From Crocinitomicaceae bacterium (GTDB lineage Bacteria > Bacteroidota > Bacteroidia > Flavobacteriales_D > Crocinitomicaceae): a stretch of 47,235 bases of DNA. The stretch lies in contig JAHEMQ010000008.1 in NCBI GenBank assembly GCA_024643555.1, positions 1 to 47,235 on the forward strand, read 5' to 3'. The position numbers and the translations under genes were made by a program. The notes under the pieces were generated by a model that was not told the origin of the DNA, ran no database searches, and worked only from the letters and a program-made list of their open reading frames with translations. Positions 19,448 through 45,895 of this stretch are shown here, one piece after another. Every line of letters starts with the position of its first letter. The first letter of the stretch is position 1.

Positions 19448-22372
19448 ATGAATAAGAAAGTCTATGTATTTGGTTCTCTGATGGTTGCAGGTGTAGTTGC
19501 TGCCGCTGTTGGTGCATTTATGTTGTTTCCAACAGAAGGGAAATACAAGCAAGAAAGTCTAAGCTCATTACAGGAGCAGTCTTCTGATGATGCGATGGAA
19601 TGGTTGAGAGCGCGTTACATTGATGTAACAACAGGACAACCAGTTTCCGCTGAGAAAATTGCGCAGATTGATGGACAAATCCGTAAAATGAAAAAATCTA
19701 AATCCATTGTGTTTGAATCAATGGGTCCAGATAACATTGGAGGACGTACACGTGCGATTCAACCGGATCGAACAAATATCAACCGTGTTTGGGCTGGTGG
19801 AGTTTCAGGTGGACTTTTCGTTTCAATGAACAAAGGAAATCAATGGGAGCGTGTAGAGTCTTACTTTGCAGCTGGAGCAAATCCTTTTGTTTCGTCAATG
19901 ACCCAAACTCCAGATGGTACCTTGTTTGTTTCGACTGGTTCTGATCAGGAAGGATGGAATGGAAATGGGGTGTGGTATTCAACGGATTTCGGAACGACAT
20001 GGAGTTCAATTCCAGGTACTTCTAGTTGTACTGAGGTTGTTAGTTCGAATGCAGATAATTATGTATTTATGGCATCAAATTCTGGAGTAAGAAAGTGGAA
20101 AGTGGGAGATGCAAATATGACAACGGTTCCAGTCGCGAGTGGTGGGTGTTCAGCCTTGAAAATTTCACCAGACGGACAAGTGATCGTTGCAGCGTTTGGT
20201 GCGAATAAGACTTATGTTTCTGCAGATGGTGGAGCAAGTTTCACCGACAAATCGGGAACAATAACAAACAACCTGGTTCCTTCAGGCGCGGCGCGTATTG
20301 AATTTGCCATTTCATCGATTAAAAATGCATCGAATCACTATTCCCTATATGCAGTTCGTACAAATAGTAACCTAATGAGCATGCATGTTTCGCATGATGA
20401 TGGTCAAACTTGGAATCAATTTGTCGGCGCTTCTGCTCCGCCAAGTGAATTTGATATTTACCGAAATCAGGGAACTTACAACAGCATTGTCACTGTCGTA
20501 CCTAATGATCCAGAAATGATTCTGATTGGTGGAATTGACATTTGGAAATGGAAACAAATGGTGGATAATCCGCCACAAGGAGGATTTGAAAAAGTGAGTC
20601 AGTGGTTTGCCTCACCAAACTCTTCGATATACGCGCATGCGGACAACCACGAAATGAAATGGGATGCCAATAATCGTTTCTACATCGGTAATGATGGGGG
20701 GATTGGAGTAACATCAAATTATGGTCAAACATGGCATCCCTCGAACAGAGGTTACAATGTAACACAGTTTTATGGCATCGCTTTCGATCGTAAAGGTGCG
20801 GTAATGGGAGGTGCACAAGATAATGGTACACTTTACAATGATTTCAGCTTAAATACGCCTCAAGAATTTAGTCAAGTGAATGGTGGTGATGGATTCGAAT
20901 GTGAGATTTCATTCTTTAATCCACGTGTCATGTTTTCAACCGTGTATTACAATTCCATTTCTCGTTCCGGCGATAAAGGACAAACGTTCACAAGTTTTGT
21001 TCCGAGTCTACCAGCTTCATACGATGCGGCAGGAACGGATGGAAGTGCAAACCACCCTTTCCACTCTGAAATTTTCTTGGCAGAGTATTATGATTTAAAT
21101 TCTCAGGATTCTGTGACTTTAATTCCAACAAAATCTTATGCTGCGGGATCCATCATCCGCGTGCCATCAATGTCATCGGGAGATTCAATTTCTTACGTCA
21201 CTCCTACAGCATTGTACTTTGACGATACGCTTCTTTACGATCCTTCTTTAACGGTTGGTAACGTAAACTATGGATTGAATGCCGCAACCGGAGAAACAGT
21301 TGCAATGGGAACAGACACTGTCATTTACAATGTGACATGGGATACCGTTCGCGTGCAAGATCCTTACCAATCTTGGTTCTTGGTATATGTGAATGCCAAC
21401 AATGGAGAACTTTGGGGAACAAGAAATGCACTTCGTTTGGCAGTGACAAATCAGCAATGGGTTTGTGTCGCTCGCGGAATTGGTGGTGGATTGTTCAACT
21501 CGATTGACGTAGAATTCTCTAAAGACTTAAATCATTGCTACGTTAGTGCAGGAAATGGTGTATGGCGCATCGATAACATGGGTTCTGTATACACAAGTGA
21601 TCCTAATTTCTTGACGAAAGTGGGATACATTACTTCAGGTAGTACTTCGACAACTCCATCTTTTACTACGGCAACGAAGATTACTACTGCAAGCTACGAG
21701 GGTATTGCGGTGAATCCAAGTAATGGGAATGACATCATTTGTTTTGCTGGATTTGGGGGGACAAATAAACGTTCATTGAATGCAAATGCGGGAACACCAA
21801 CGTTTACTGCGTTGACTTCAATTACGAATCCTGGAGTGGCGTGTTACGATGGAATCATCGACCGTAACAATTCAGATGTGATTGTGGTTGGTACATCTAA
21901 TGGTGCATTTATTTCTACAAATGGAGGAGCTTCTTGGGAAAATTCGTCAACAGGATTTGAAGGCACTCCAGTGTATGAAGTTCGTCAGTCATGGAGAACC
22001 TTTGATGAAGGAAATGATCGTCCGGGTGAAATTTACCTTGGTACTTTTGGACGTGGAATCTGGAGATCGACAGCTTTCTTAGGAATGGATGAAAATGGTA
22101 CAGGAGCAAACGGGAAGTTTGACAGCAAATTGAAAACATATCCAAATCCAACGCGTGACAATACAACGGTAACCTTCGAATTGGCAAATGCAGGAATGGT
22201 AGATATTCAAGTTTATTCCATTACTGGTCGCTTAGTGAAATCTGTAAGAAAATCAATGAGCGAAGGAACAAATTCCATCGAAATTGAAGGAGATAATTTA
22301 GCGAATGGTACTTACATTGTGAAATTCAATTCAGGTAAGCAATCTGAATCAGTGAAATTCATTAAAATGTAA
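19448..22372 (+). CDS. Large Asp-box (sortilin/BNR-like) protein with T9SS type A sorting domain
   Basis: A 974-residue secreted protein. Residues 7-28 are an N-terminal hydrophobic signal sequence. The body carries repeated Asp-box-like turns S-x-D-x-G-x-x-W/F: STDFGTTW (about 178), SADGGASF (257), SHDDGQTW (314), TSNYGQTW (421) and STNGGASW (823). These are typical of sortilin/VPS10-like or sialidase-like beta-propellers. FESMGPDNIGGRTRAIQPD near residue 95 is the opening seen in many Bacteroidota propeller proteins. The last 75 residues (YPNPTRDNTTVTFELANAG, then VYSITGRLVKS) are a clear T9SS type A domain. No catalytic site is visible; binding or adhesion is an inference. A strong terminator follows. 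Confidence 0.88.
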   Translation: MNKKVYVFGSLMVAGVVAAAVGAFMLFPTEGKYKQESLSSLQEQSSDDAMEWLRARYIDVTTGQPVSAEKIAQIDGQIRKMKKSKSIVFESMGPDNIGGRTRAIQPDRTNINRVWAGGVSGGLFVSMNKGNQWERVESYFAAGANPFVSSMTQTPDGTLFVSTGSDQEGWNGNGVWYSTDFGTTWSSIPGTSSCTEVVSSNADNYVFMASNSGVRKWKVGDANMTTVPVASGGCSALKISPDGQVIVAAFGANKTYVSADGGASFTDKSGTITNNLVPSGAARIEFAISSIKNASNHYSLYAVRTNSNLMSMHVSHDDGQTWNQFVGASAPPSEFDIYRNQGTYNSIVTVVPNDPEMILIGGIDIWKWKQMVDNPPQGGFEKVSQWFASPNSSIYAHADNHEMKWDANNRFYIGNDGGIGVTSNYGQTWHPSNRGYNVTQFYGIAFDRKGAVMGGAQDNGTLYNDFSLNTPQEFSQVNGGDGFECEISFFNPRVMFSTVYYNSISRSGDKGQTFTSFVPSLPASYDAAGTDGSANHPFHSEIFLAEYYDLNSQDSVTLIPTKSYAAGSIIRVPSMSSGDSISYVTPTALYFDDTLLYDPSLTVGNVNYGLNAATGETVAMGTDTVIYNVTWDTVRVQDPYQSWFLVYVNANNGELWGTRNALRLAVTNQQWVCVARGIGGGLFNSIDVEFSKDLNHCYVSAGNGVWRIDNMGSVYTSDPNFLTKVGYITSGSTSTTPSFTTATKITTASYEGIAVNPSNGNDIICFAGFGGTNKRSLNANAGTPTFTALTSITNPGVACYDGIIDRNNSDVIVVGTSNGAFISTNGGASWENSSTGFEGTPVYEVRQSWRTFDEGNDRPGEIYLGTFGRGIWRSTAFLGMDENGTGANGKFDSKLKTYPNPTRDNTTVTFELANAGMVDIQVYSITGRLVKSVRKSMSEGTNSIEIEGDNLANGTYIVKFNSGKQSESVKFIKM

Positions 22373-34161: not shown

Positions 34162-35276
34162 TTGACACGGGAAAAAGTACAGACTAATGCACGGTGATCA
34201 CTTAATTCTTCGCCCTGAATTTGAAAGCCGCTTGTACTTAAATTAGGAGAAAAGAATAGGTAGTCAATTCTTCCTGCGGGTAATCTGCCAATATAGGTGG
34301 AACCGATTCCGCTGCTTGTTTGACGGAAAGCATCTTTTAGAAAGCGGTTAAATTGATTATAGGTGTAGGACATGGGTGTATCGTTAAAGTCTCCACAAAC
34401 AATGACTGGATAGGGTGAGGTTTTAATGTGCTCCACAACACGACGCGCTTGTTCCGCCCTTTTCAAATAAGCCAATCTAAGTTTTAAAAAGACATTTTTG
34501 ATCACGCGTTTATTTCCAAGTGATTCTTCGCTGGATCCTTGTTCAATATTTGGATCGGTATGTAAGCGAATGGACTGTAAATGAACGTTGTATACCCGGA
34601 ACGTATCTTGATTTTTGACAATATCCGAATAGATACAGTAATTAAAGTCTCCATTTCCTTGGGATTCAAACATGACATCTCCTTTTGCGATGATCGGATG
34701 TTTTGAAAACATGGCAATGCCATAATTTTGTCGTGTACTTCGCTTATGGGCACTCCGTTCATGATAGTTTCGATTTCCCATAATTGAAAATAAGGAATCG
34801 ACGACTTCAAAATCTGTTGGTTTATCCTGGCGATAGTATTCCTGTAGACAAAGGACTTCGGGGTTGGTCCTGCGGATATATGCAAAAATCTGGTTTCGGT
34901 GTTTCACGGCATCTTTGAAACTCGGGTTAAACAAGTCAAAAAGACGGACATTGTAAGTCAAAACTTTTAATCCTGAGGATTCGGCTGGAACATGACTAGA
35001 AAATGCCAGGCTTCGAAAGTGCATTTTTCCGCCCAGTCCCAACACAATCAGCGTATAAATGGCCCATTTGGATCGTGCTAAACTCCAAATCAACAACCAA
35101 GCGATATGGATGCCAAGAAGGACAGGGTACATCAATCCGAAAAAAGGAAGGATGGAAAGTGTTTTTGGATGAATAAACGGACTTAAGTAACATAAAATGA
35201 GGGCGCCATAACTAATTAGACTTCCTATTTTGAAAACCGATGAAAAGCGAAAAACACGATTGAAAAGATTAGCCAT
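34158..35276 (-). CDS. Membrane-anchored endonuclease/exonuclease/phosphatase-family hydrolase
   Basis: A 372-residue protein with three membrane helices in residues 15-95 followed by an EEP domain. Motifs visible are LKVLTYNVRLFDLF (metal-binding N), VLCLQEYY (metal-binding E), VYNVHLQSI, VIVCGDFNDTPMSY (D and N) and the terminal ELSDHRALVCTF (catalytic D and H). The domain should cut phosphodiesters in nucleic acids or lipids; the location of the domain, periplasm or cytoplasm, is not settled. It overlaps the upstream rhomboid gene by 8 bases and the downstream amidotransferase by 4. Confidence 0.87.
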   Translation of the reverse strand: MANLFNRVFRFSSVFKIGSLISYGALILCYLSPFIHPKTLSILPFFGLMYPVLLGIHIAWLLIWSLARSKWAIYTLIVLGLGGKMHFRSLAFSSHVPAESSGLKVLTYNVRLFDLFNPSFKDAVKHRNQIFAYIRRTNPEVLCLQEYYRQDKPTDFEVVDSLFSIMGNRNYHERSAHKRSTRQNYGIAMFSKHPIIAKGDVMFESQGNGDFNYCIYSDIVKNQDTFRVYNVHLQSIRLHTDPNIEQGSSEESLGNKRVIKNVFLKLRLAYLKRAEQARRVVEHIKTSPYPVIVCGDFNDTPMSYTYNQFNRFLKDAFRQTSSGIGSTYIGRLPAGRIDYLFFSPNLSTSGFQIQGEELSDHRALVCTFSRVK

Positions 35277-36162
35277 TCTTGCTTTGGTTAAATAAGAAAT
35301 CCTTCTCAGCTTTGCTTAAAGAATCGTAACCCGATTTGGATATTTTGTCCAAAATCTGATCCATTCTTTCTTGTTTCTGATGCTTTTCACTGTTAAATTC
35401 TTCGTCTGTTTTGTAACGTGTATTTTGTCGTTTTACTTGGGGTTTTGCTTTAAAAAACGAGGGGAACTTCGTGAAAAATCCTTCGAGTCGAGTGAGTATG
35501 TTTCGAGAGGAATACAGGTTGCGCACAGAGAATAATCCAAAAATAGCACCGCCTAAATGCGCGAAATGGGCGATTTGGTCATCTGTACCGATGTTTATCA
35601 GGTCTTTGAATAAGAAGAACAAAGCAAGGAAGTAAATGCGGATTGGAAAAATACCGAACAACTGAACTTGTAAATTTGGTTGGTGAAATGCCAAGGCTGT
35701 GAAAATGGCCATGATGGATCCGGAAGCGCCGAGAATGACAACGTTTACTCCTTCAAGCGCTGGAAATAAGTTGTTGGCGATGATTTCTAATAGCCCACCT
35801 GCGATTCCACCGAATATGTAGGTCAAGATTAGTTTTTTTCTACTAAAGAATTGTTCAAAAAAGGATCCTGAGAAGTAGAGGAACAACATGTTGAACAATA
35901 AATGTCCAAATTGCTCATGCGTGAAGATACTGGTAACAAGTCCCCATGGAGCTTGAATAAATGCACCTAATGAACTGTTTAATTCGAATACACGGTGAAT
36001 GATTTCCGCAGCGAAATACGCATTTAGATTGAAGAGAATAAAAAACTTCTTCAGCAATAGAATGAATAGAAAAACGCATACATTGACAATGATCAGTCGA
36101 TTTGTCATCGTACCTGAGCGTAATTGAAACTTGAATTCTTCGATGAAATTTCTACCCTGCAT
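35269..36162 (-). CDS. Rhomboid-family intramembrane serine protease with C-terminal tail
   Basis: A 297-residue membrane protein. The catalytic serine is in VILGASGSIMAIF, and the catalytic histidine is in HFAHLGGAIFG. HLLFNMLFLYF carries the conserved loop-helix motif. About six helices lie in residues 20-215. A charged tail of some 80 residues ends DKISKSGYDSLSKAEKDFLF, a conserved tail in Bacteroidota rhomboids (I recall it as DUF6576). It directly abuts the preceding rhomboid gene with no spacer. The pair may divide substrates, but no substrate is evident. Confidence 0.92.
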   Translation of the reverse strand: MQGRNFIEEFKFQLRSGTMTNRLIIVNVCVFLFILLLKKFFILFNLNAYFAAEIIHRVFELNSSLGAFIQAPWGLVTSIFTHEQFGHLLFNMLFLYFSGSFFEQFFSRKKLILTYIFGGIAGGLLEIIANNLFPALEGVNVVILGASGSIMAIFTALAFHQPNLQVQLFGIFPIRIYFLALFFLFKDLINIGTDDQIAHFAHLGGAIFGLFSVRNLYSSRNILTRLEGFFTKFPSFFKAKPQVKRQNTRYKTDEEFNSEKHQKQERMDQILDKISKSGYDSLSKAEKDFLFNQSKNG

Positions 36163-36897
36163 TTACCAAAAGTTTGATCGATCAGCTTTTCTCCAAAATA
36201 AAACAATGATAGCACCTACAATGGCTCCACCGACATGTGCCAAATGCGCAGTATTGTCATTCGGATTGTTTTGTAAGGACAAATACACTTCAATCAGGAA
36301 GTAAGCGGCAACAAAGTACTTCGCTTTGACGGGAATCGCAAAATACAAACGAAATTCCGTATTTGGAAAAAGAATTGCGAAGGCGGTCATGACGCCAAAA
36401 ATGGCTCCGGATGCACCAACAATTGGAGTAAAGCACATGGAAGCATATTTAATGACGCTACCAGAATTCGTGGATAACAATCCATCTCTGTCATTTTGAA
36501 TAATCAATTGATTGATTTCATCCAAACGGAAACCTTCCGAAATGATTGCTGATTTTAATTCTGAAATCTCAACTACTCCTAAAACATTGTACAAGGCATA
36601 AGCTCCCAATGCTGAGGCTATATAGAAAATAAAAAATCGTTTTGGGCCCCAAATATGTTCTAGGTAAGCACCAAGAATGGCAAATAAATACATGTTAAAA
36701 AGGATGTGGAAGAATCCACCATGCATGAAAAAATGCGTCACGATTTGATACGGCTTGAAAAGAGGAGAGTTTACATAGTGTGCTCCGAGAGATGAACTGA
36801 GGTCAATTCCCTGATACTGCAATACTAAAGTAACTACGAAGAACATGATGTTCAACAGAATGATGTTTTTAGTTACTTGTGGAAGATGGTTGAACAT
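36163..36897 (-). CDS. Rhomboid-family intramembrane serine protease
   Basis: A 244-residue six-helix rhomboid. The start ATG 36897 (MFNHLPQVTKNIILLNIM) lies 2 bases after the mutL stop; a longer frame would overlap mutL and adds a sequence without family resemblance. Motifs are HGGFFHILFNMYLFA, GASGAIFGVMTAF with the catalytic serine, and HLAHVGGAIVGA with the catalytic histidine. Between helices 2 and 3 is an unusual soluble insert with SEGFRLDEINQLIIQNDRDG. It is the second gene of the mutL-led operon. Confidence 0.92.
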   Translation of the reverse strand: MFNHLPQVTKNIILLNIMFFVVTLVLQYQGIDLSSSLGAHYVNSPLFKPYQIVTHFFMHGGFFHILFNMYLFAILGAYLEHIWGPKRFFIFYIASALGAYALYNVLGVVEISELKSAIISEGFRLDEINQLIIQNDRDGLLSTNSGSVIKYASMCFTPIVGASGAIFGVMTAFAILFPNTEFRLYFAIPVKAKYFVAAYFLIEVYLSLQNNPNDNTAHLAHVGGAIVGAIIVLFWRKADRSNFW

Positions 36898-36899
36898 GC

Positions 36900-38726
36900 T
36901 TAAAAGTTTGATTGAATTTCGGTTAGGGATAAGGTATGCATGATTTTCTTTCCATTTGGAGCCACTGCATGTTCCTTGCATTGAAACAAGGACTCTATGA
37001 GTGCTTGTGCTTCCTCTGGTCGACGAACAACGGCATCTTTCGAGGCGTTTTGCGTCAAACGTTTGACCAAATGATGTGCCACGTCTCCTTGATCAATATC
37101 TCTGTTTTGAAGTTCGGATAACAAGGAGTCAAGACATGCATCAATAGCATGTTCTGGTAAAACGGATGGAACACCATGTATGTACAAAATACCATCTTCT
37201 AATGAACTTTGAAAACCTAATTGATGAAGCAGTTTGTCATGGGTTTTCCATAAGTCGCCTTCGCTTGAAGACACCTGTTTTTCAATGGGAAATAGCAATT
37301 GTTGGCTATCCAATGCTTGATGAATGAATCGTGAAATTAACTCGTCGTATAAAATGCGCCATTTTGCACGCTTCACGTCAATGACTAACAGTCCAGATTT
37401 TGTTGGCGAAAAGACGTAGCGGTCGTGTAATAAGTAACTGCCAGATTCTCGTTCTTCGTGTAAACCTAAATCCTCAGAAAGATCTCCACGGTTCGAAGTT
37501 TGCTCTTCTATTTGATAAAAGTTCTCCCAATCCTCTGTACTTGGCATGGTTTGTCCAAATCCTTCATTTTTCAATGCTTTCGAAAATCCGTTCCCACTCG
37601 AAGTGGAAGAGCTACGTGCAGACTGAAAAGGATTGAATGTTGGGTCGACCGTGATTTGGGGTGCTACTGGATCTGTTTTTCGGAAGGAACTTGGAACATC
37701 AAAACTTGTTTCTGTTTCGAAATCAAGGGTAGGGAAGATGTTGTGTTTTCCCAACGCTTGTCTCACACTGCTTAACAATATGGAATAGATAAATCTGTCC
37801 TCTTCGAATTTAATCTCTGTTTTAGTCGGATGAATGTTGACGTCAATTTTCGCCGGATCTACATCCAAATAAATGCAATAACTAGGATAGTGTTTTTCAC
37901 TAATCATTCCATCAAATGCTTTCGAAATGGCATGATGAAAGTAAGAATCCTTGAAATAACGATTGTTGACAAAAAAGAACTGTTCGCCGCGCGTTTTTCT
38001 TGCTGCATCTGGTTTTCCAATAAATCCTTTAATCGAAACAATGTTCGTTTGTTCCTCGATTGGAACCAGGCGTTCATTGCTGTTACGACCGAAAATACTA
38101 GCAACGCGCATACGCAACACTCCTGCTTGCAAATTATAGATTTCTTGTCCGTTATGGTGTAAGGTAAATTTAATCTCGGGATGTGCCAACGCCACACGTT
38201 CAAACTCATCGCGGATGTGTCCAAATTCAATGGTTTCTGACTTCAAGAAATTTCTTCTGGCAGGGACATTGTAAAACAAGTTTTTTACTTCAAAACTTGT
38301 CCCTTTCGCACAAACGATTTGCTCGTTGGTTCGGATGGTATTTCCTTCTACTTCGATGAATGTTCCTGTATCCACTTGGACTTGTTTTGTCCGCATTGCT
38401 ACATGCGCAATCGAAGCAATCGAAGCAAGTGCCTCTCCACGAAACCCTTTGGTTTGTAATTTGAAAAGGTCATCCGCAGTCTTTAATTTACTGGTAGCAT
38501 GACGCTGAAAGCACTTCACAGCATCTTCCGGACTCATCCCGGTCCCGTCGTCCACTACTTGAATGAGTGTTTTTCCAGCATCCTTAATGATCAATTGAAC
38601 CTGTGTCGCTCCTGAGTCGATGGAATTCTCCATGAGTTCTTTCACTACGGAAGCTGGACGTTGAATCACTTCACCTGCTGCAATCTGATTGGCAATGTGT
38701 TCAGGAAGTAGTTGAATCACACTCAT
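36900..38726 (-). CDS. mutL: DNA mismatch repair protein MutL
   Basis: Mismatch repair coordinator. ATG 38726 (MSVIQLLPEHIANQIAAGEVIQ) is preferred over a TTG 6 bases upstream; length 608. The GHKL ATPase shows KELMENSIDSGATQV, QVVDDGTGM and TKGFRGEALASI. A disordered serine-rich linker lies at about 355-400, and then the C-terminal dimerisation domain. Nicking MutL proteins have DQHAxxE-x4-E. Here the segment reads LLVIDVKRAKWRILYDE near 447, and the CPHGRP zinc motif is replaced by APNGKKIMH, so endonuclease activity is unlikely. It leads a run of five packed genes. Confidence 0.94.
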   Translation of the reverse strand: MSVIQLLPEHIANQIAAGEVIQRPASVVKELMENSIDSGATQVQLIIKDAGKTLIQVVDDGTGMSPEDAVKCFQRHATSKLKTADDLFKLQTKGFRGEALASIASIAHVAMRTKQVQVDTGTFIEVEGNTIRTNEQIVCAKGTSFEVKNLFYNVPARRNFLKSETIEFGHIRDEFERVALAHPEIKFTLHHNGQEIYNLQAGVLRMRVASIFGRNSNERLVPIEEQTNIVSIKGFIGKPDAARKTRGEQFFFVNNRYFKDSYFHHAISKAFDGMISEKHYPSYCIYLDVDPAKIDVNIHPTKTEIKFEEDRFIYSILLSSVRQALGKHNIFPTLDFETETSFDVPSSFRKTDPVAPQITVDPTFNPFQSARSSSTSSGNGFSKALKNEGFGQTMPSTEDWENFYQIEEQTSNRGDLSEDLGLHEERESGSYLLHDRYVFSPTKSGLLVIDVKRAKWRILYDELISRFIHQALDSQQLLFPIEKQVSSSEGDLWKTHDKLLHQLGFQSSLEDGILYIHGVPSVLPEHAIDACLDSLLSELQNRDIDQGDVAHHLVKRLTQNASKDAVVRRPEEAQALIESLFQCKEHAVAPNGKKIMHTLSLTEIQSNF

Positions 38727-38807
38727 ATCCAAAAAATGTTAGATTCGTGAGGGAATGTCCAAAAGGATTGCGCTAAAATGCCTGTAAAAAAATGCGTATT
38801 CATGTCC

Positions 38808-38876: not shown

Positions 38877-40136
38877 CTACATGCGAACAATTGTTCCGCG
38901 GTACTCGCCTTTTTCTCCAGCTAATGGATTTTGCAAAACCACTTTCCAAATGTAAGCTTTGTTGCTAGGAACCATCTTGCCATCACGTCGGTCAATTCCG
39001 TCCCAGGCATTATCAGCATCTGTCGATTGGAAAATGAGTCCACCGTTATCTGGATCCAAAATGATCAATTTAAACGGTGTTTGTCGAATGGTTAAGGCAA
39101 AAGGCATAAACGTGTTGTTACGACTATCCAAGGACTGTGGGTTAAATGCGTTCACAGCCAATAAGTTATAATCCTCTGAAATGTTGATCATTTCTTTTTC
39201 CTTCGATTTACATCCATTCGCACCGATGGCTTGTACTTCCACAATAGCGATACCTTTGACAAATGCAAGGACATTTGTTGATTTCCCTTGGTACGTATCC
39301 ATTTTCACGTTGGAAAACCAGCTCAAGTGTGCGTCAGTTGCTTCAGCTGTCAAATTGATTTTAGGTAAACCGTCTTCATAATTGATGTTTCGATCAACCG
39401 ATAAAGCCAAGTTAGGCGCAGCGAATACTTCAAAACTTCCAAATTCCTCAATCTGTCCGTAAGGACCAGTATTCGCAGTTAAAGTTACTTTTCCTGCTTC
39501 TGTTAATTTAATAGAAATCGATTGTCCATATCCGAAATACAACATTTTTCCCGCATAGTTGATGAAGCGTTCATGCTGTTGATCAGCTGCAAGTTCAAAT
39601 GTTTCACCTTGACATCTGCTTTTGAAGTCAAATTGTACAATTCCACCACTGTATGAAGGTGTTGTTTCTTGATTTTCAATTATTTGATCCCTTAAGCCCA
39701 GTACTTCTCTTTGATTTAAAATAAGTGGAATCGAATGTGGAATCAACTCATTTTCATTGGGAATAACTGCTGGCGGATTGCTTTGAATCATCAACTGATC
39801 CATTTCGTTTGAATTCATTCCTTTTTCAGTGTGATGTTGAGCCGTTAAAGGAGCTGCTTCGCTTTGATTTGGAGATGCCACTACCGTAGCATTTGTTTTC
39901 TTAGAGGCAGTTTTTTCGTTTGTTTCTCTCCAAGCACGTTTAACTGAAGTCGGTAGCGTAAAATACGCAACAATACCAATGGCAATTACAATAACAGCAG
40001 ACCATTTCAAACTGGATGACTGGTACCATTTTTTAGCGCTTAATTTTTGATTCAGCGATTCCCATGCTTGCGCATTATAAGGAAGCTCGAAATCATTCAA
40101 GGCCTTTTTAAAATTATGTTCTAAACCATCTTTCAT
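38877..40136 (-). CDS. Putative anti-sigma membrane protein with gliding-motility/T9SS type B-like C-terminal domain
   Basis: A 419-residue protein. The N-terminus (1-36, NDFELPYNAQAWESLNQKL) matches the short cytoplasmic segment common to Bacteroidota proteins encoded beside ECF sigma factors. A single helix at 45-61 follows. The predicted periplasmic part has a low-complexity stretch (65-155) and two Ig-like regions (about 170-320). It ends with a 90-residue domain (AVNAFNPQSLDSRNNTFMPF, then WDGIDRRDGKMVPSNKAYIW and GTIVRM). This matches the gliding motility-associated C-terminal domain (CHU_C, T9SS type B). Its start overlaps the sigma gene by 4 bases. Acting as an anti-sigma factor is inferred from layout. 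Confidence 0.75.
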   Translation of the reverse strand: MKDGLEHNFKKALNDFELPYNAQAWESLNQKLSAKKWYQSSSLKWSAVIVIAIGIVAYFTLPTSVKRAWRETNEKTASKKTNATVVASPNQSEAAPLTAQHHTEKGMNSNEMDQLMIQSNPPAVIPNENELIPHSIPLILNQREVLGLRDQIIENQETTPSYSGGIVQFDFKSRCQGETFELAADQQHERFINYAGKMLYFGYGQSISIKLTEAGKVTLTANTGPYGQIEEFGSFEVFAAPNLALSVDRNINYEDGLPKINLTAEATDAHLSWFSNVKMDTYQGKSTNVLAFVKGIAIVEVQAIGANGCKSKEKEMINISEDYNLLAVNAFNPQSLDSRNNTFMPFALTIRQTPFKLIILDPDNGGLIFQSTDADNAWDGIDRRDGKMVPSNKAYIWKVVLQNPLAGEKGEYRGTIVRM

Positions 40137-40705
40137 TTCTCGATGTGTATGAATTTCTCTGTTAATATGCGTTGAAGGTTCATCTTTGCCTTCGCCAAAT
40201 TGGATTTTGAAGTTCCTTCACTAATTCCCAAAAGATCAGCGATTTCTTTGTGTGAACAATCCTCTAAAACAAACAAGTTAAATACTGTACGATAGGCAGG
40301 TGATAATTTGGAAATAGCCTCCATGGCTACTTCTGCTTTAAGTCCGAGTAAATCTAACTCTTCCTGCTCCACTAGCTCGTCGCGACCTTCTTGCTTGAAA
40401 TCAGTGTCCAAGTCACTCAAAAAAGGATTTCGTTTGGCTTTTCGAAGGGCATCGATCGCCGTGTTAGCCACAATGCGACGAATCCATCCTTCCAAAGAAC
40501 CTTTGAAATCAAAAACTTCCAATTTGTCAAAGACCTTTAAAAACGCTTCTTGCAAAACCTCTTGGGCAGTGTCCCTGTCCGACATATAACGCAAACATAC
40601 TGCCATCATTTTTCCGTAAAATTGCTTAAACAATGCCTCCTGCGAACGACGTTCGCCCCGGATGCATCCCTCCACAATTTCCTTTAAATGACCCTGGTTC
40701 TCCAA
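40133..40705 (-). CDS. ECF-type RNA polymerase sigma factor
   Basis: A 190-residue sigma-70 family protein with regions 2 and 4 only. Region 2 is at about 24-90 (ALFKQFYGKMMAVCLRYM, DTAQEVLQEAFLKVF and GWIRRIVANTAIDALRK). Region 4 is at about 130-185 (AISKLSPAYRTVFNLFVLED and KEIADLLGISEGTSKSNLAKA). It overlaps the putative anti-sigma gene by 4 bases, so the two are translationally coupled. It is divergent from mdh with about 150 bases between the starts. A promoter for self-regulation could lie there, but I could not recognise one. Confidence 0.93.
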   Translation of the reverse strand: MENQGHLKEIVEGCIRGERRSQEALFKQFYGKMMAVCLRYMSDRDTAQEVLQEAFLKVFDKLEVFDFKGSLEGWIRRIVANTAIDALRKAKRNPFLSDLDTDFKQEGRDELVEQEELDLLGLKAEVAMEAISKLSPAYRTVFNLFVLEDCSHKEIADLLGISEGTSKSNLAKAKMNLQRILTEKFIHIEK

Positions 40706-40853
40706 TTTTCAACAATTTTTAAACGTCTCGAAGATACGACGGTTGCCTTGAAAAATAAATAAAACTGAAAATAAGGACTAAAAAAACTAAAATTTGCTCA
40801 AATTCACTAAATTCGTGACGCTATTAAGCAATTACGAACTAATACCAGATCAA

Positions 40854-41792
40854 ATGAAAGTAACCGTAGTAGGTGCAGGTAATGTAGGAGCAACCTGTGC
40901 AGATGTGTTAGCGCAACGAGAAATCGCTAACGAAATTGTTTTATTAGATATCAAAGAAGGTTTTGCGGAAGGAAAAGCTTTGGATATCTGGCAAACGTCT
41001 CCAATCAACTTGTATGATTCACGTACAATTGGTTCAACAAACGATTATGCTAAAACAGCAGATTCAGATGTGGTGGTCATTACTTCAGGTTTACCAAGAA
41101 AACCGGGAATGTCTCGTGACGATCTTATCGCTACCAATGCAGGTATTGTTAAGACCGTGACAGAGAACATCGTGAAGTATTCACCGAATGCCATCATCGT
41201 TGTTGTTTCGAATCCGTTGGATGTCATGACGTATTGCGCATATTTAAATGCGAACACAGATCCAAATAAAGTTTTTGGAATGGCAGGAGTGTTGGATACT
41301 GCACGTTACCGTGCATTTTTGGCCTCGGAATTAAACGTTTCTCCGAAGGATATTCAAGCAGTGTTGATGGGTGGACACGGGGACACGATGGTTCCACTTC
41401 CACGTTATACGACTGTTGGTGGAATTCCAGTAACTGAATTAATTGATGAAGCCAAATTGAACGAAATCATCGAACGCACGAAATTTGGTGGTGGCGAAAT
41501 CGTGAAATTATTGGGTACTTCGGCTTGGTATGCACCAGGTGCGGCAGCGGCTCAAATGGTAGAAGCGATTGTTCGTGATCAAAAACGTATTTTCCCAGTT
41601 TGTGCTTGGTTGCAAGGAGAATATGGAATGAAAGATATTTACCTTGGTGTACCTGTAGTTCTTGGTAAAAACGGAATCGAGAAGATCATCGAATTGCAAT
41701 TAAACGATGCTGAACGTGCACTTTTAGTGGAATCTGCAGACGCAGTGAAAAGTGTGATGGAAGTATTGGACAACATGATTGCGAACGCATAA
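40854..41792 (+). CDS. mdh: Malate dehydrogenase (LDH-like)
   Basis: NAD-dependent malate/oxaloacetate dehydrogenase of the TCA cycle. The ATG at 40854 (MKVTVVGAGNVGATCADVL) gives 312 residues and begins directly with the NAD-binding glycine loop; an upstream in-frame ATG at 40794 adds 20 unlikely residues. Substrate-binding GLPRKPGMSRDDLI carries the mobile-loop arginines. GGHGDTMVPLPRY holds the catalytic histidine near residue 174. Arginine rather than glutamine in the loop position points to malate over lactate. It stands alone, with a strong terminator after it. Confidence 0.96.
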   Translation: MKVTVVGAGNVGATCADVLAQREIANEIVLLDIKEGFAEGKALDIWQTSPINLYDSRTIGSTNDYAKTADSDVVVITSGLPRKPGMSRDDLIATNAGIVKTVTENIVKYSPNAIIVVVSNPLDVMTYCAYLNANTDPNKVFGMAGVLDTARYRAFLASELNVSPKDIQAVLMGGHGDTMVPLPRYTTVGGIPVTELIDEAKLNEIIERTKFGGGEIVKLLGTSAWYAPGAAAAQMVEAIVRDQKRIFPVCAWLQGEYGMKDIYLGVPVVLGKNGIEKIIELQLNDAERALLVESADAVKSVMEVLDNMIANA

Positions 41793-44522: not shown

Positions 44523-45101
44523 ATGAAATTCTTTCGCAAATCTATTTCCGAATGGACAGATGAGTCCCTCATGCACGCCTTAGGCGAGGGGAATCAGCAT
44601 GCCTTTACGGAATTGTATGAGCGATATGCGGGGAAATTGCGCGGATATTTTAGAAACATGCTTTGGCGGGACGATGAAAAGGCGGAGGACTTTGTTCATG
44701 ATTTATTTGCAAAAATCATTCAGCACCCAGCGTTGTTCGATACCAACCGATCTTTTAAAACCTGGGTTTTTTCCGTAGCGAGCAACATGTGTAAAAACGA
44801 ATACAAGCGAATGGAAGTCCGCAAGAACACCATCAACGGTGCCGATACTTCGCATGCACCTTCATCGGAAAATGTCCTAAATCAAGTGCAAGATGTACAA
44901 TTTATGGAGGATTTTGAGCTGAAAATACAAGAACTTGATGAAAAACACCGATCTGTCTTCACGTTGAGGCATTTGGACGGATTGTCATTAAAAGAAATCG
45001 CAGAAATTTTGGAAATAAATGAAGGGACAGTTAAATCCCGATTATTTTATGCTACGAAATTTCTAGCAAATCAACTAAGTATATACCAACTGAACGAATA
45101 A
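44523..45101 (+). CDS. ECF-type RNA polymerase sigma factor
   Basis: A 192-residue sigma factor. Region 2 is at about 25-90 (AFTELYERYAGKLRGYFRNM, AEDFVHDLFAKIIQH and FKTWVFSVASNMCKNEYKR). Region 4 is at about 135-185 (QELDEKHRSVFTLRHLDGLS and KEIAEILEINEGTVKSRLFYA). It is quite different from the sigma factor at 40133. It sits between the exported protein (stop adjacent to start) and a membrane-anchored protein 2 bases downstream, which is the usual place for an anti-sigma factor. Confidence 0.92.
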   Translation: MKFFRKSISEWTDESLMHALGEGNQHAFTELYERYAGKLRGYFRNMLWRDDEKAEDFVHDLFAKIIQHPALFDTNRSFKTWVFSVASNMCKNEYKRMEVRKNTINGADTSHAPSSENVLNQVQDVQFMEDFELKIQELDEKHRSVFTLRHLDGLSLKEIAEILEINEGTVKSRLFYATKFLANQLSIYQLNE

Positions 45102-45103
45102 TC

Positions 45104-45895
45104 ATGGAAGAGTCATTAAAAAACATCTTAAAAACGCACCGTTCCTTTGCTGAATTAACTTTAGCACAGCGGAAACAATTAGCGGAATGGTGTGCTGACG
45201 AACAAGAGTTTCAAGCGATGAAGTCCTTGTTTCATCAGGTCGAGGCATGGTCAGAGAAACAGGATGATGACAAGAACACCAAGCAACGCTTGGATCAACT
45301 TTTTGCATTTCAATATGCAGGAAAACAATACACGGAAGGAGGCTCCAATTCAAAACCACGATTTTTATCCATGAAATTATGGATTCCAATGAGTGCGGTG
45401 GCAGCGGCGCTTGTGCTTACTTGGTACGTTTACCCAACCAATTCTCACGTGCAACTAGCGAAGAACGAGACTCCCAAACAGGAACTGTTGCATAAAAAAT
45501 CGACGCAATTGGGGGAAACTCAAAAAGCAGAAGAACAAGTAGCGGCAGATTCGGAGCGAAATGTCGAACCGCGCGAAAATCAAATCAGTGAGGAACGCGT
45601 TTCAGTTTTGGAAATGAGCGCTGCCGCTGCGGATGATTTTGCTGTTATTCCCGCTGGACCGTCAATAGAAGTGTTCTCAAATTCTATGGCAAACGCTTCT
45701 GATACCTTCACAGAGCCAGAGTTGTCCAACTACTCTTGGAGTGCCGCTTCATTATCTGAAGTACAAGTTATTACTTCATCTAAACTAAAAAATCGCAAAG
45801 ATCAAGTCGATGGCCGCCTGGAAAAAGATGCATTCACAGCCTTTAGTTTGAAGTCCATGCCAGAAATGTTGGATGTATTGGTGGCTTCTTATTAA
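45104..45895 (+). CDS. Membrane-anchored putative anti-sigma factor
   Basis: A 263-residue protein. The cytoplasmic N-terminus (1-85, FAELTLAQRKQLAEWCADEQEF) is helical and ends before a membrane helix at about 90-108 (LWIPMSAVAAALVLTWYVYP). The outer part is acidic, repetitive and probably disordered (EAEEQVAADSERN-like stretches, about 115-200) and ends in a short structured region. No zinc-binding HxxxCxxC motif is present. It starts 2 bases after the sigma stop, so position suggests an anti-sigma role. The stop overlaps the convergent gene at 45892 by 4 bases. Confidence 0.68.
   Translation: MEESLKNILKTHRSFAELTLAQRKQLAEWCADEQEFQAMKSLFHQVEAWSEKQDDDKNTKQRLDQLFAFQYAGKQYTEGGSNSKPRFLSMKLWIPMSAVAAALVLTWYVYPTNSHVQLAKNETPKQELLHKKSTQLGETQKAEEQVAADSERNVEPRENQISEERVSVLEMSAAAADDFAVIPAGPSIEVFSNSMANASDTFTEPELSNYSWSAASLSEVQVITSSKLKNRKDQVDGRLEKDAFTAFSLKSMPEMLDVLVASY

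Follow-up and report, generated by a model that had tools for sequence, protein, structure and literature searches.

Organization of the locus

The 47,235-nucleotide (nt) stretch of DNA analysed here (the window) comes from contig JAHEMQ010000008.1 of a Crocinitomicaceae genome (GCA_024643555.1, the home genome). On its minus strand lies a gene pair encoding an extracytoplasmic function (ECF) sigma factor and a membrane-anchored, anti-sigma-like protein of 419 amino acids (aa), the C-terminus of which resembles the type B sorting domains of proteins secreted by the type IX secretion system (T9SS) (Table 1). A preliminary description of the window had coupled the two genes; both open reading frames (ORFs) are present, and Pfam sigma-70 regions 2 (E 8.8e-15) and 4 (E 2.6e-16) were identified in the sigma ORF. 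The sigma gene adjoins the anti-sigma-like gene in 29 of 30 loci of the same genus (window counted), the lone exception lying at a contig edge, and in 14 of the 17 that were retrieved for other families within the order, where two of the exceptions resemble cargo genes and one is a contig-edge fragment. Two further genomes, G039 and G050, carry sigma/anti-sigma loci additional to these 17. Within the window's order the two genes form a conserved operon, not a chance arrangement, and the fusion first read from the window's protein recurs beside ECF sigma genes of its relatives. The TTG start codon of the sigma gene (40703-40705, minus strand), which could restrict sigma synthesis, is constant in position across the genus loci read, while several loci of other families have an ATG.

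Table 1. Features of the gene pair, its promoter and its neighbours in the window
Feature	Position	Strand	Remarks
ECF sigma factor gene	40133-40705	-	190 aa, TTG start
Membrane anti-sigma-like protein gene	38877-40136	-	419 aa, 4-nt overlap with sigma gene
Short charged N-terminus, putative sigma-binding segment	residues 1-43 (40008-40136)	-	E17, P19, Y20 and W25 conserved
Single membrane helix	residues 47-65 (39942-39998)	-	hydropathy
Linker of about 100 aa	residues 66-165 (39642-39941)	-	hardly conserved, gap-rich in alignment
Ig/PKD-like region(s)	residues 170-318 (39183-39629)	-	alignment with relatives; C175 and C309 inside
T9SS type B (CHU_C-like) domain without R-W/F/Y-G	residues 319-419 (38880-39182)	-	profile comparison
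ECF-type promoter GGCAAC-N16-CGT(T)	40723-40747	-	17 nt before sigma start codon
-35-like box	40742-40747	-	GGCAAC
-10-like box	40723-40725	-	CGT
mutL	36900-38732	-	downstream neighbour, named by sequence
Rhomboid protease gene	36163-36981	-	downstream neighbour, beyond mutL
Malate dehydrogenase gene (mdh)	40794-41792	+	divergent neighbour of sigma gene, named by sequence

The anti-sigma-like protein has the short charged N-terminus and one membrane helix that the preliminary description had recognized. The helix has a Kyte-Doolittle hydropathy (KD) of 2.17, compared to 1.52 for the next strongest stretch elsewhere, and this sole strong hydrophobic stretch is preceded by 46 residues. Judged by eye, the N-terminus therefore does not have the form of a Sec signal peptide, in line with the earlier view of a protein anchored without a cleavable signal. 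From its position and the gene pairing, the N-terminal segment would bind the sigma factor in the cytoplasm and the remainder of the protein would face the periplasm, where the linker might serve as a tether. Immunoglobulin (Ig)-like regions had also been proposed. PKD domains are matched by 15 of 45 aligned family members, and the window's region(s) rest on alignment with these relatives because the protein's own sequence hits no PKD model. The only cysteines of the protein, C175 (39612-39614, minus strand) and C309 (39210-39212, minus strand), are nearly invariant in the family and might form a disulfide, either within the protein or to a partner.

A type B-like sorting domain lacking a cargo motif

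Direct searches with Pfam CHU_C and NCBIfam TIGR04131 gave no match to the C-terminus of the window's protein at E<=1, and the home genome's 38 CHU_C matches are all on contigs other than the window's. The relationship emerged when a profile of the C-terminal domain (CTD), built from 107 proteins (that of the window plus its relatives) over their last 105 residues, was compared with the tails of 31 type B and seven type A cargo proteins. HHalign aligned it to the type B tails over 98 columns with a probability of 98% (E 1.5e-13), versus a probability of 0.2%, no match, for the type A tails. The corresponding profile of relatives from other families reached 99.9% with the type B tails, and CHU_C is matched directly by 12 of the 45 aligned family members (best 2.9e-16). 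By these comparisons the domain is homologous to T9SS type B sorting domains; the C-terminal assignment of the preliminary description thus holds at the profile level and fails as a direct CHU_C or NCBIfam match. In the PDB, a sequence search with the family profile found PKD domains of collagenases and other proteins and no type B CTD, and a search with the CTD alone found nothing convincing.

Conserved motifs were counted in the last 110 residues of 20 home-genome tails (out of 29 CHU_C matches over the cut-off), 13 tails of motif-target proteins (see below) and 231 anti-sigma-like proteins, the latter picked by sequence and length from 120 close and 120 more distant proteins, of which seven and two, respectively, were omitted for length. 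The motif R-[WFY]-G is present in 19 of the 20 home-genome tails, the twentieth being the genome's second anti-sigma-like protein, so that all 19 cargo tails have it, and in 12 of the 13 target tails. Among the anti-sigma-like proteins it occurs in none of the 113 close and one of the 118 more distant members. Because this motif of real cargo tails is missing, we consider the domain a look-alike and not a working export signal. Paillat and colleagues report that SprB needs each of five conserved motifs in its tail for secretion (PMC12618676), and R-W-G would be one of them. Two other motifs are retained in the anti-sigma-like proteins: W-x-G in 226 of 231 (17 of 20 home-genome tails) and [YFI]-x-W in 230 of 231 (seven of 20 home-genome and 12 of 13 target tails). 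In contrast, P-N-x-F, found in 15 of 20 home-genome tails, is kept by 80 of the 118 distant and only six of the 113 close anti-sigma-like proteins, and by this measure the window's own group has drifted further than its distant relatives.

The promoter upstream of the sigma gene

The exact sequence GGCAAC-N16-CGT occurs once in the window. GGCAAC and CGT boxes precede the sigma start at short distance in all 41 readable loci (window counted; two of 43 lie at contig edges), with a spacer of 16 nt in 37, 17 nt in three and 15 nt in one of them. In the home genome, 18 sigma matches were compared, 15 of them sigma-70-like over the family cut-off and not necessarily all ECF; the contigs scanned hold 11 exact N16 sites, and only the window's sigma gene has one just upstream. 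Spacers of other lengths were checked at 16 of the 18 genes, in part on incomplete upstream sequence; some of the sigma genes sit at the edge of a contig. This pattern suggests that the window's sigma factor itself reads GGCAAC-N16-CGT.

Genes under the motif

Downstream genes were identified in three samples and two controls. The first set consisted of ten genomes with 98 exact N16 sites, versus 106 for the reversed motif, and because the raw counts are no higher than those of the reversed motif, only position and target class were used. With 82 of the 98 sites classified (the other 16 being 12 sites in G054 and four sigma promoters), 33 of the 82 were intergenic with a start codon at most 150 nt downstream (ATG, GTG or TTG starts, at least 100 codons), four of them before sigma operons. 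The control with an N13 spacer yielded one such site among 30 sampled (of 61), and that one belongs to the sigma operon itself. Under a second start rule (ATG only, at least 60 codons, at most 250 nt, two identical sites merged to give 81), 39 of 81 sites were intergenic: four precede sigma operons, five have no downstream ORF and 30 precede other targets.

Half of these non-sigma targets (15 of 30) carry a T9SS sorting domain, ten of type B and five of type A. TIGR04131 matches ten members and TIGR04183 six, with five type A tails nameable; one member probably matches both models. Candidate t5 has no match, and t7, a truncated giant protein like t15 and t17, was scored as non-cargo. The 15 counted targets include proteins of 3397, 3402 and 4757 aa. 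For two targets in the home genome, a type A protein (C25:25924) and a giant repeat protein cut by a contig end (C87:57962), related genomes keep a counterpart that likewise follows the motif. As a background, sorting domains occur in about 5% of home-genome genes (29 CHU_C and 68 type A matches over the cut-off, assuming about one gene per kb); with orthologues merged by eye, 10 of 22 targets are cargo (binomial 4e-8).

The remaining samples were read with ATG starts only, at least 60 codons and at most 150 nt. The second set covered 56 of 61 sites in five of eight scanned genomes, all from other genera (74 sites of G037, G041 and G044 were excluded). It contained 23 sites with a start, three before sigma operons and 20 before other targets; all 20 were scanned for domains, and eight of them have a sorting domain, two of them below the curated cut-off; another target is a PorP/SprF shuttle (L341, 6.6e-51). 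The curated cut-off of TIGR04131 is 35 bits, and t30 (31.2), L380 (32.2) and L371 (29.0, at a contig end) were counted at E<=1e-6. A PorP/SprF-like gene (L382) more than 150 nt from its site and below the TIGR03519 cut-off was left uncounted, and the remainder includes two truncated exported proteins (L348 and L362). Other spacers (10-15 and 17-22) gave 22 sites, three with a start, in the same DNA, which had originally been fetched around N16 sites.

For the third sample, five genomes were selected in the hope that they had no sigma gene. Of their 65 sites 30 were read, and 11 of these had a start, two before sigma operons and nine before other targets. One of these nine has a sorting domain (L486, CHU_C), seven have none, and L485, a giant exported protein cut by a contig end, fell outside the domain scan; a further CHU_C protein that starts at its site in G005 was not counted. 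These genomes did not serve as natural knock-outs: G039 and G050, picked because a search had revealed no anti-sigma in them, turned out to carry the sigma gene together with a diverged anti-sigma that matches CHU_C weakly. A membrane protein of 144-179 aa, mutually similar in G043, G039 and G050 (L462, L479 and L480; two families), was observed under the motif; it has no NCBIfam match and might be a non-cargo member of the regulon.

Pooling the three sets gives 24 recognized cargo genes among 59 targets. Another ECF motif, TGTAAC-N16-CGT, served as a second control: 13 of 30 sampled sites (of 94) were promoter-like and none of these 13 leads to a sorting-domain protein in searches with local hidden Markov models, three sorting-domain ORFs being present at these loci without being the downstream gene of any of the 13 sites. 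The difference is significant for the first set (15/30 vs. 0/13, Fisher 0.0013) and for all sets together (0.003), orthologues being unmerged in both. Cargo genes are therefore enriched among the motif's targets, though they are not the whole set, and it is the motif that links them to the window's sigma factor.

Neighbouring genes, relatives and other ECF systems

The divergent mdh neighbour is present at 27 of the 30 loci of the genus and at 12 of the 17 from other families, and for this reason the locus looks vertically inherited. On the other side, mutL was found in 28 of 30 genus loci and in none of the 17 other-family loci within the few kb fetched. Tandem rhomboid protease genes (35269-36981, minus strand) lie beyond mutL, near the membrane anti-sigma gene; giving them any part in the sigma circuit is speculation.

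A total of 423 proteins match the 419-aa protein, 120 of which were listed, with names including Crocinitomicaceae, Cryomorphaceae and Parvicella tangerina. The last of these is a cultured relative that has the pair, and its protein shows 100% identity over 98% of its length to the copy of G038. All 60 genomes searched, home genome included, contain a match at E<=0.01, many of these being merely CHU_C domains of cargo. In a sample of 148 genomes from the phylum, full-length profile matches at E<=1e-20, a threshold that misses diverged members, occurred only in G000 and G044, both of the window's order, while G020, a genome of the same order that has the pair, matched over the last 171 positions only. 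No relatives were found on viral contigs. A scan of named genomes kept 80 loci of 480 relatives, two of which are sigma/anti-sigma loci.

Related gene arrangements were observed elsewhere in the home genome (G000) and in the window. On G000:C76 (L223:1897-3303, minus strand), a second ECF sigma gene is immediately followed by a gene for a 289-aa protein that has a hydrophobic stretch, matches CHU_C directly (9.2e-15) and lacks R-[WFY]-G, a shorter form of the same design. On G000:C41 (L391:1456-3144, minus strand), a third ECF sigma gene precedes a gene for an anti-sigma-like protein with a C-terminal PorP/SprF-like barrel (PF11751, 2.3e-12), which adjoins a separate PorP/SprF gene. The CTD-ending and barrel-ending anti-sigmas of the home genome may represent related circuits that read different T9SS parts. 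The window itself encodes another ECF sigma factor (44523-45101, plus strand). Before its gene lies a 398-aa ORF that Pfam does not match, and after it a 263-aa ORF (45104-45895) that neither Pfam nor NCBIfam matches. The window also encodes a 974-aa type A cargo protein of the T9SS (19448-22372, plus strand) with sortilin/BNR-like matches and a Por_Secre_tail (7e-14).

A putative link between cargo synthesis and secretion capacity

Our tentatively preferred explanation, to which we give slightly less than an even chance, is that the pair forms a sigma/anti-sigma switch in which a secretion-dead type B decoy couples cargo synthesis to the availability of the T9SS or its shuttles. The N-terminus of the anti-sigma would tether the sigma factor at the inner membrane, and the type B look-alike, carried on a long linker, could extend as far as the outer membrane and meet T9SS parts or PorP/SprF shuttles there. 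Being anchored and lacking the cargo-tail motif, it would dock there without being exported, as a decoy substrate. A free T9SS or shuttle would thus permit docking, perhaps followed by proteolysis, and release the sigma factor, which, going by the promoter motif, would transcribe its own operon together with cargo and shuttle genes; newly made cargo would then displace the decoy and turn the system off. Both the docking partner, T9SS or shuttle, and the sign of the response are presumed in this scheme. Its net logic would be a FlgM-like coupling of cargo synthesis to secretion capacity, achieved by docking and not by export of the anti-sigma.

Several observations weigh against this explanation. 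Total motif counts show no excess over the reversed motif, with position and target class alone standing out; many targets are orthologous to one another; the third sample yielded one sorting-domain target in nine, and the test on sigma-less genomes failed, two of the five chosen genomes carrying the sigma gene. Most targets are not recognized cargo, and some, such as a methionine synthase and an Lrp-like regulator in the second set, look like chance sites. The loss of P-N-x-F in close relatives may indicate a domain that is decaying and not a maintained mimic, and the proteins in the motif counts were taken as anti-sigma-like by sequence and length rather than by the individual presence of a sigma gene beside them. 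The motif may also be shared by another sigma factor, the argument from the regulon covers the targets found, with most promoters of T9SS machinery outside the motif scan, and sigma binding, docking and transcription are proposed steps.

The strongest competitor, which we judge unlikely though well worth considering, accepts that the sigma factor controls T9SS cargo and holds that the Ig/CTD-like ectodomain senses surface contact, a glycan or the state of the envelope, the type B fold having been borrowed as a stable Ig-like module with no part in reading the T9SS. Ig-like folds are common sensor modules, and R-[WFY]-G is lost, as is P-N-x-F in close relatives. Glycan sensing has been proposed by the Dma2 authors for their membrane anti-sigma (PMC13088901). 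Yet this explanation needs a coincidence, namely that the domain borrowed happens to be the tag which sorts exactly those proteins that the sigma factor appears to control. It also sits less well with the near-universal retention of W-x-G (226/231) and of [YFI]-x-W (230/231), although the latter is not general in cargo, and with the other ECF operon of the home genome that ends in a PorP/SprF-like barrel.

The preliminary description had interpreted the protein as a sensor of T9SS load or blockage reporting to the sigma factor; in such a scheme the sigma factor would raise a rescue response. Its link to the T9SS is borne out insofar as the sigma factor's promoter motif often precedes cargo genes. 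The proposed signal finds no support in the targets, and we regard this version as improbable. A T9SS-like domain does sit on an anti-sigma factor, a PorP/SprF gene (L341) and the more distant, sub-threshold L382 follow motif sites, and an ECF promoter class of Flavobacterium psychrophilum covers gldN, porU and a sigma/anti-sigma pair (PMC9723704). However, the recognized targets are mainly cargo, more of which would aggravate a blockage, and from a response to overload one would expect more machinery, proteases or chaperones. With cargo as the recognized targets, it makes regulatory sense to sense capacity and not to sense blockage; available capacity or a free shuttle would fit better as the signal.

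Similarly poor prospects attach to the idea that the ectodomain is itself exported, being cut at the membrane, e.g. by the neighbouring rhomboid, and secreted by the T9SS, which would free the sigma factor as FlgM export does. The type B-like C-terminus and the rhomboid genes beyond mutL are compatible with such a route, but R-[WFY]-G is missing, while each of the five SprB-tail motifs, to which R-W-G would belong, is needed for secretion (PMC12618676), and mutL, the companion of the rhomboids here, was not found within a few kb in the 17 other-family loci. The least probable alternative is that another sigma factor reads the motif and counts the window's operon among its targets: the home genome has 15 sigma-70-like genes over the cut-off and ECF motifs resemble one another, but ECF genes usually control themselves, no other home-genome sigma match has an exact N16 site upstream, and the window's sigma gene retains the motif across many genera.

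Comparison with known systems

In regulatory logic the decoy switch resembles the flagellar FlgM/FliA checkpoint, in which the soluble anti-sigma FlgM is itself exported by a type III system. On the explanation preferred here, both FlgM and the window's protein would be anti-sigmas that tie late export substrates to their export machine. FlgM is soluble and exported, whereas the window's protein is anchored in the membrane and has an apparently dead T9SS signal. A FlgM-like regulon would consist of secretion substrates, and recognized cargo accounts for 15 of 30, eight of 20 and one of nine motif targets in the three samples.

In its layout the protein resembles the Dma anti-sigmas, which are described as consisting of an N-terminal anti-sigma segment, a membrane helix, a disordered tether and a beta-barrel (PMC13088901). 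Both have an N-terminal anti-sigma segment (putative in the window's protein), one membrane helix and a large C-terminal domain, and both are usually encoded beside an ECF sigma gene. The long disordered tether of Dma may have its counterpart in residues 66-165, which are hardly conserved and gap-rich in the alignment, while the beta-barrel is replaced by Ig-like region(s) and a T9SS type B look-alike. By analogy, the window's protein thus looks like a Dma-like chassis with the barrel exchanged. Compared to T9SS type B cargo (TIGR04131/CHU_C), which is associated with PorP/SprF shuttles (PMC12618676, PMC9143113), the CTD is homologous over 98 columns, but the protein is anchored, has no visible signal peptide and lacks R-[WFY]-G.

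Control of the T9SS by ECF sigma factors has precedents. The nearest published case that we found in which a protein with a T9SS CTD influences an ECF pathway is PorA of Porphyromonas gingivalis, a surface protein reported to act on PorXY-SigP and thereby to affect the ECF sigma factor for T9SS genes (PMC7712824). A T9SS CTD protein would likewise affect an ECF sigma factor here, although PorA is a separate surface protein and the window's protein an anti-sigma fusion, and SigP acts on genes of T9SS components whereas the recognized motif targets of the window's sigma factor are mostly cargo. In F. psychrophilum, SM6 promoters (ECF-type, with a CGT box as at the window's pair) drive gldN, porU and a sigma/anti-sigma pair, while the adhesin/shuttle operon remFG-sprCDBF has sigma-54 and SM5 promoters and no SM6 promoter (PMC9723704). 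Titles and abstract openings outside the subscription journals yielded no anti-sigma fused to a T9SS CTD, and the cited accounts of T9SS control circuits (PorXY-SigP and the ECF, sigma-54 and SM5 promoters of F. psychrophilum) mention no anti-sigma that ends in a mimic of a cargo tag.

It is possible, though we consider it somewhat doubtful, that the operon represents the first secretion-coupled transcription checkpoint for the T9SS, in which an anchored, non-exportable type B decoy competes with cargo for the T9SS or its PorP/SprF shuttles and, by being free or bound, determines how active the sigma factor for cargo and shuttle genes is. Gliding adhesins and enzymes travel through the T9SS, as do surface proteins of very large size, the longest of the targets here having 4757 aa. 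If confirmed, the switch would provide a concrete route by which Bacteroidota could match cargo synthesis to export capacity, and a natural non-exported type B domain for studies of shuttle recognition.

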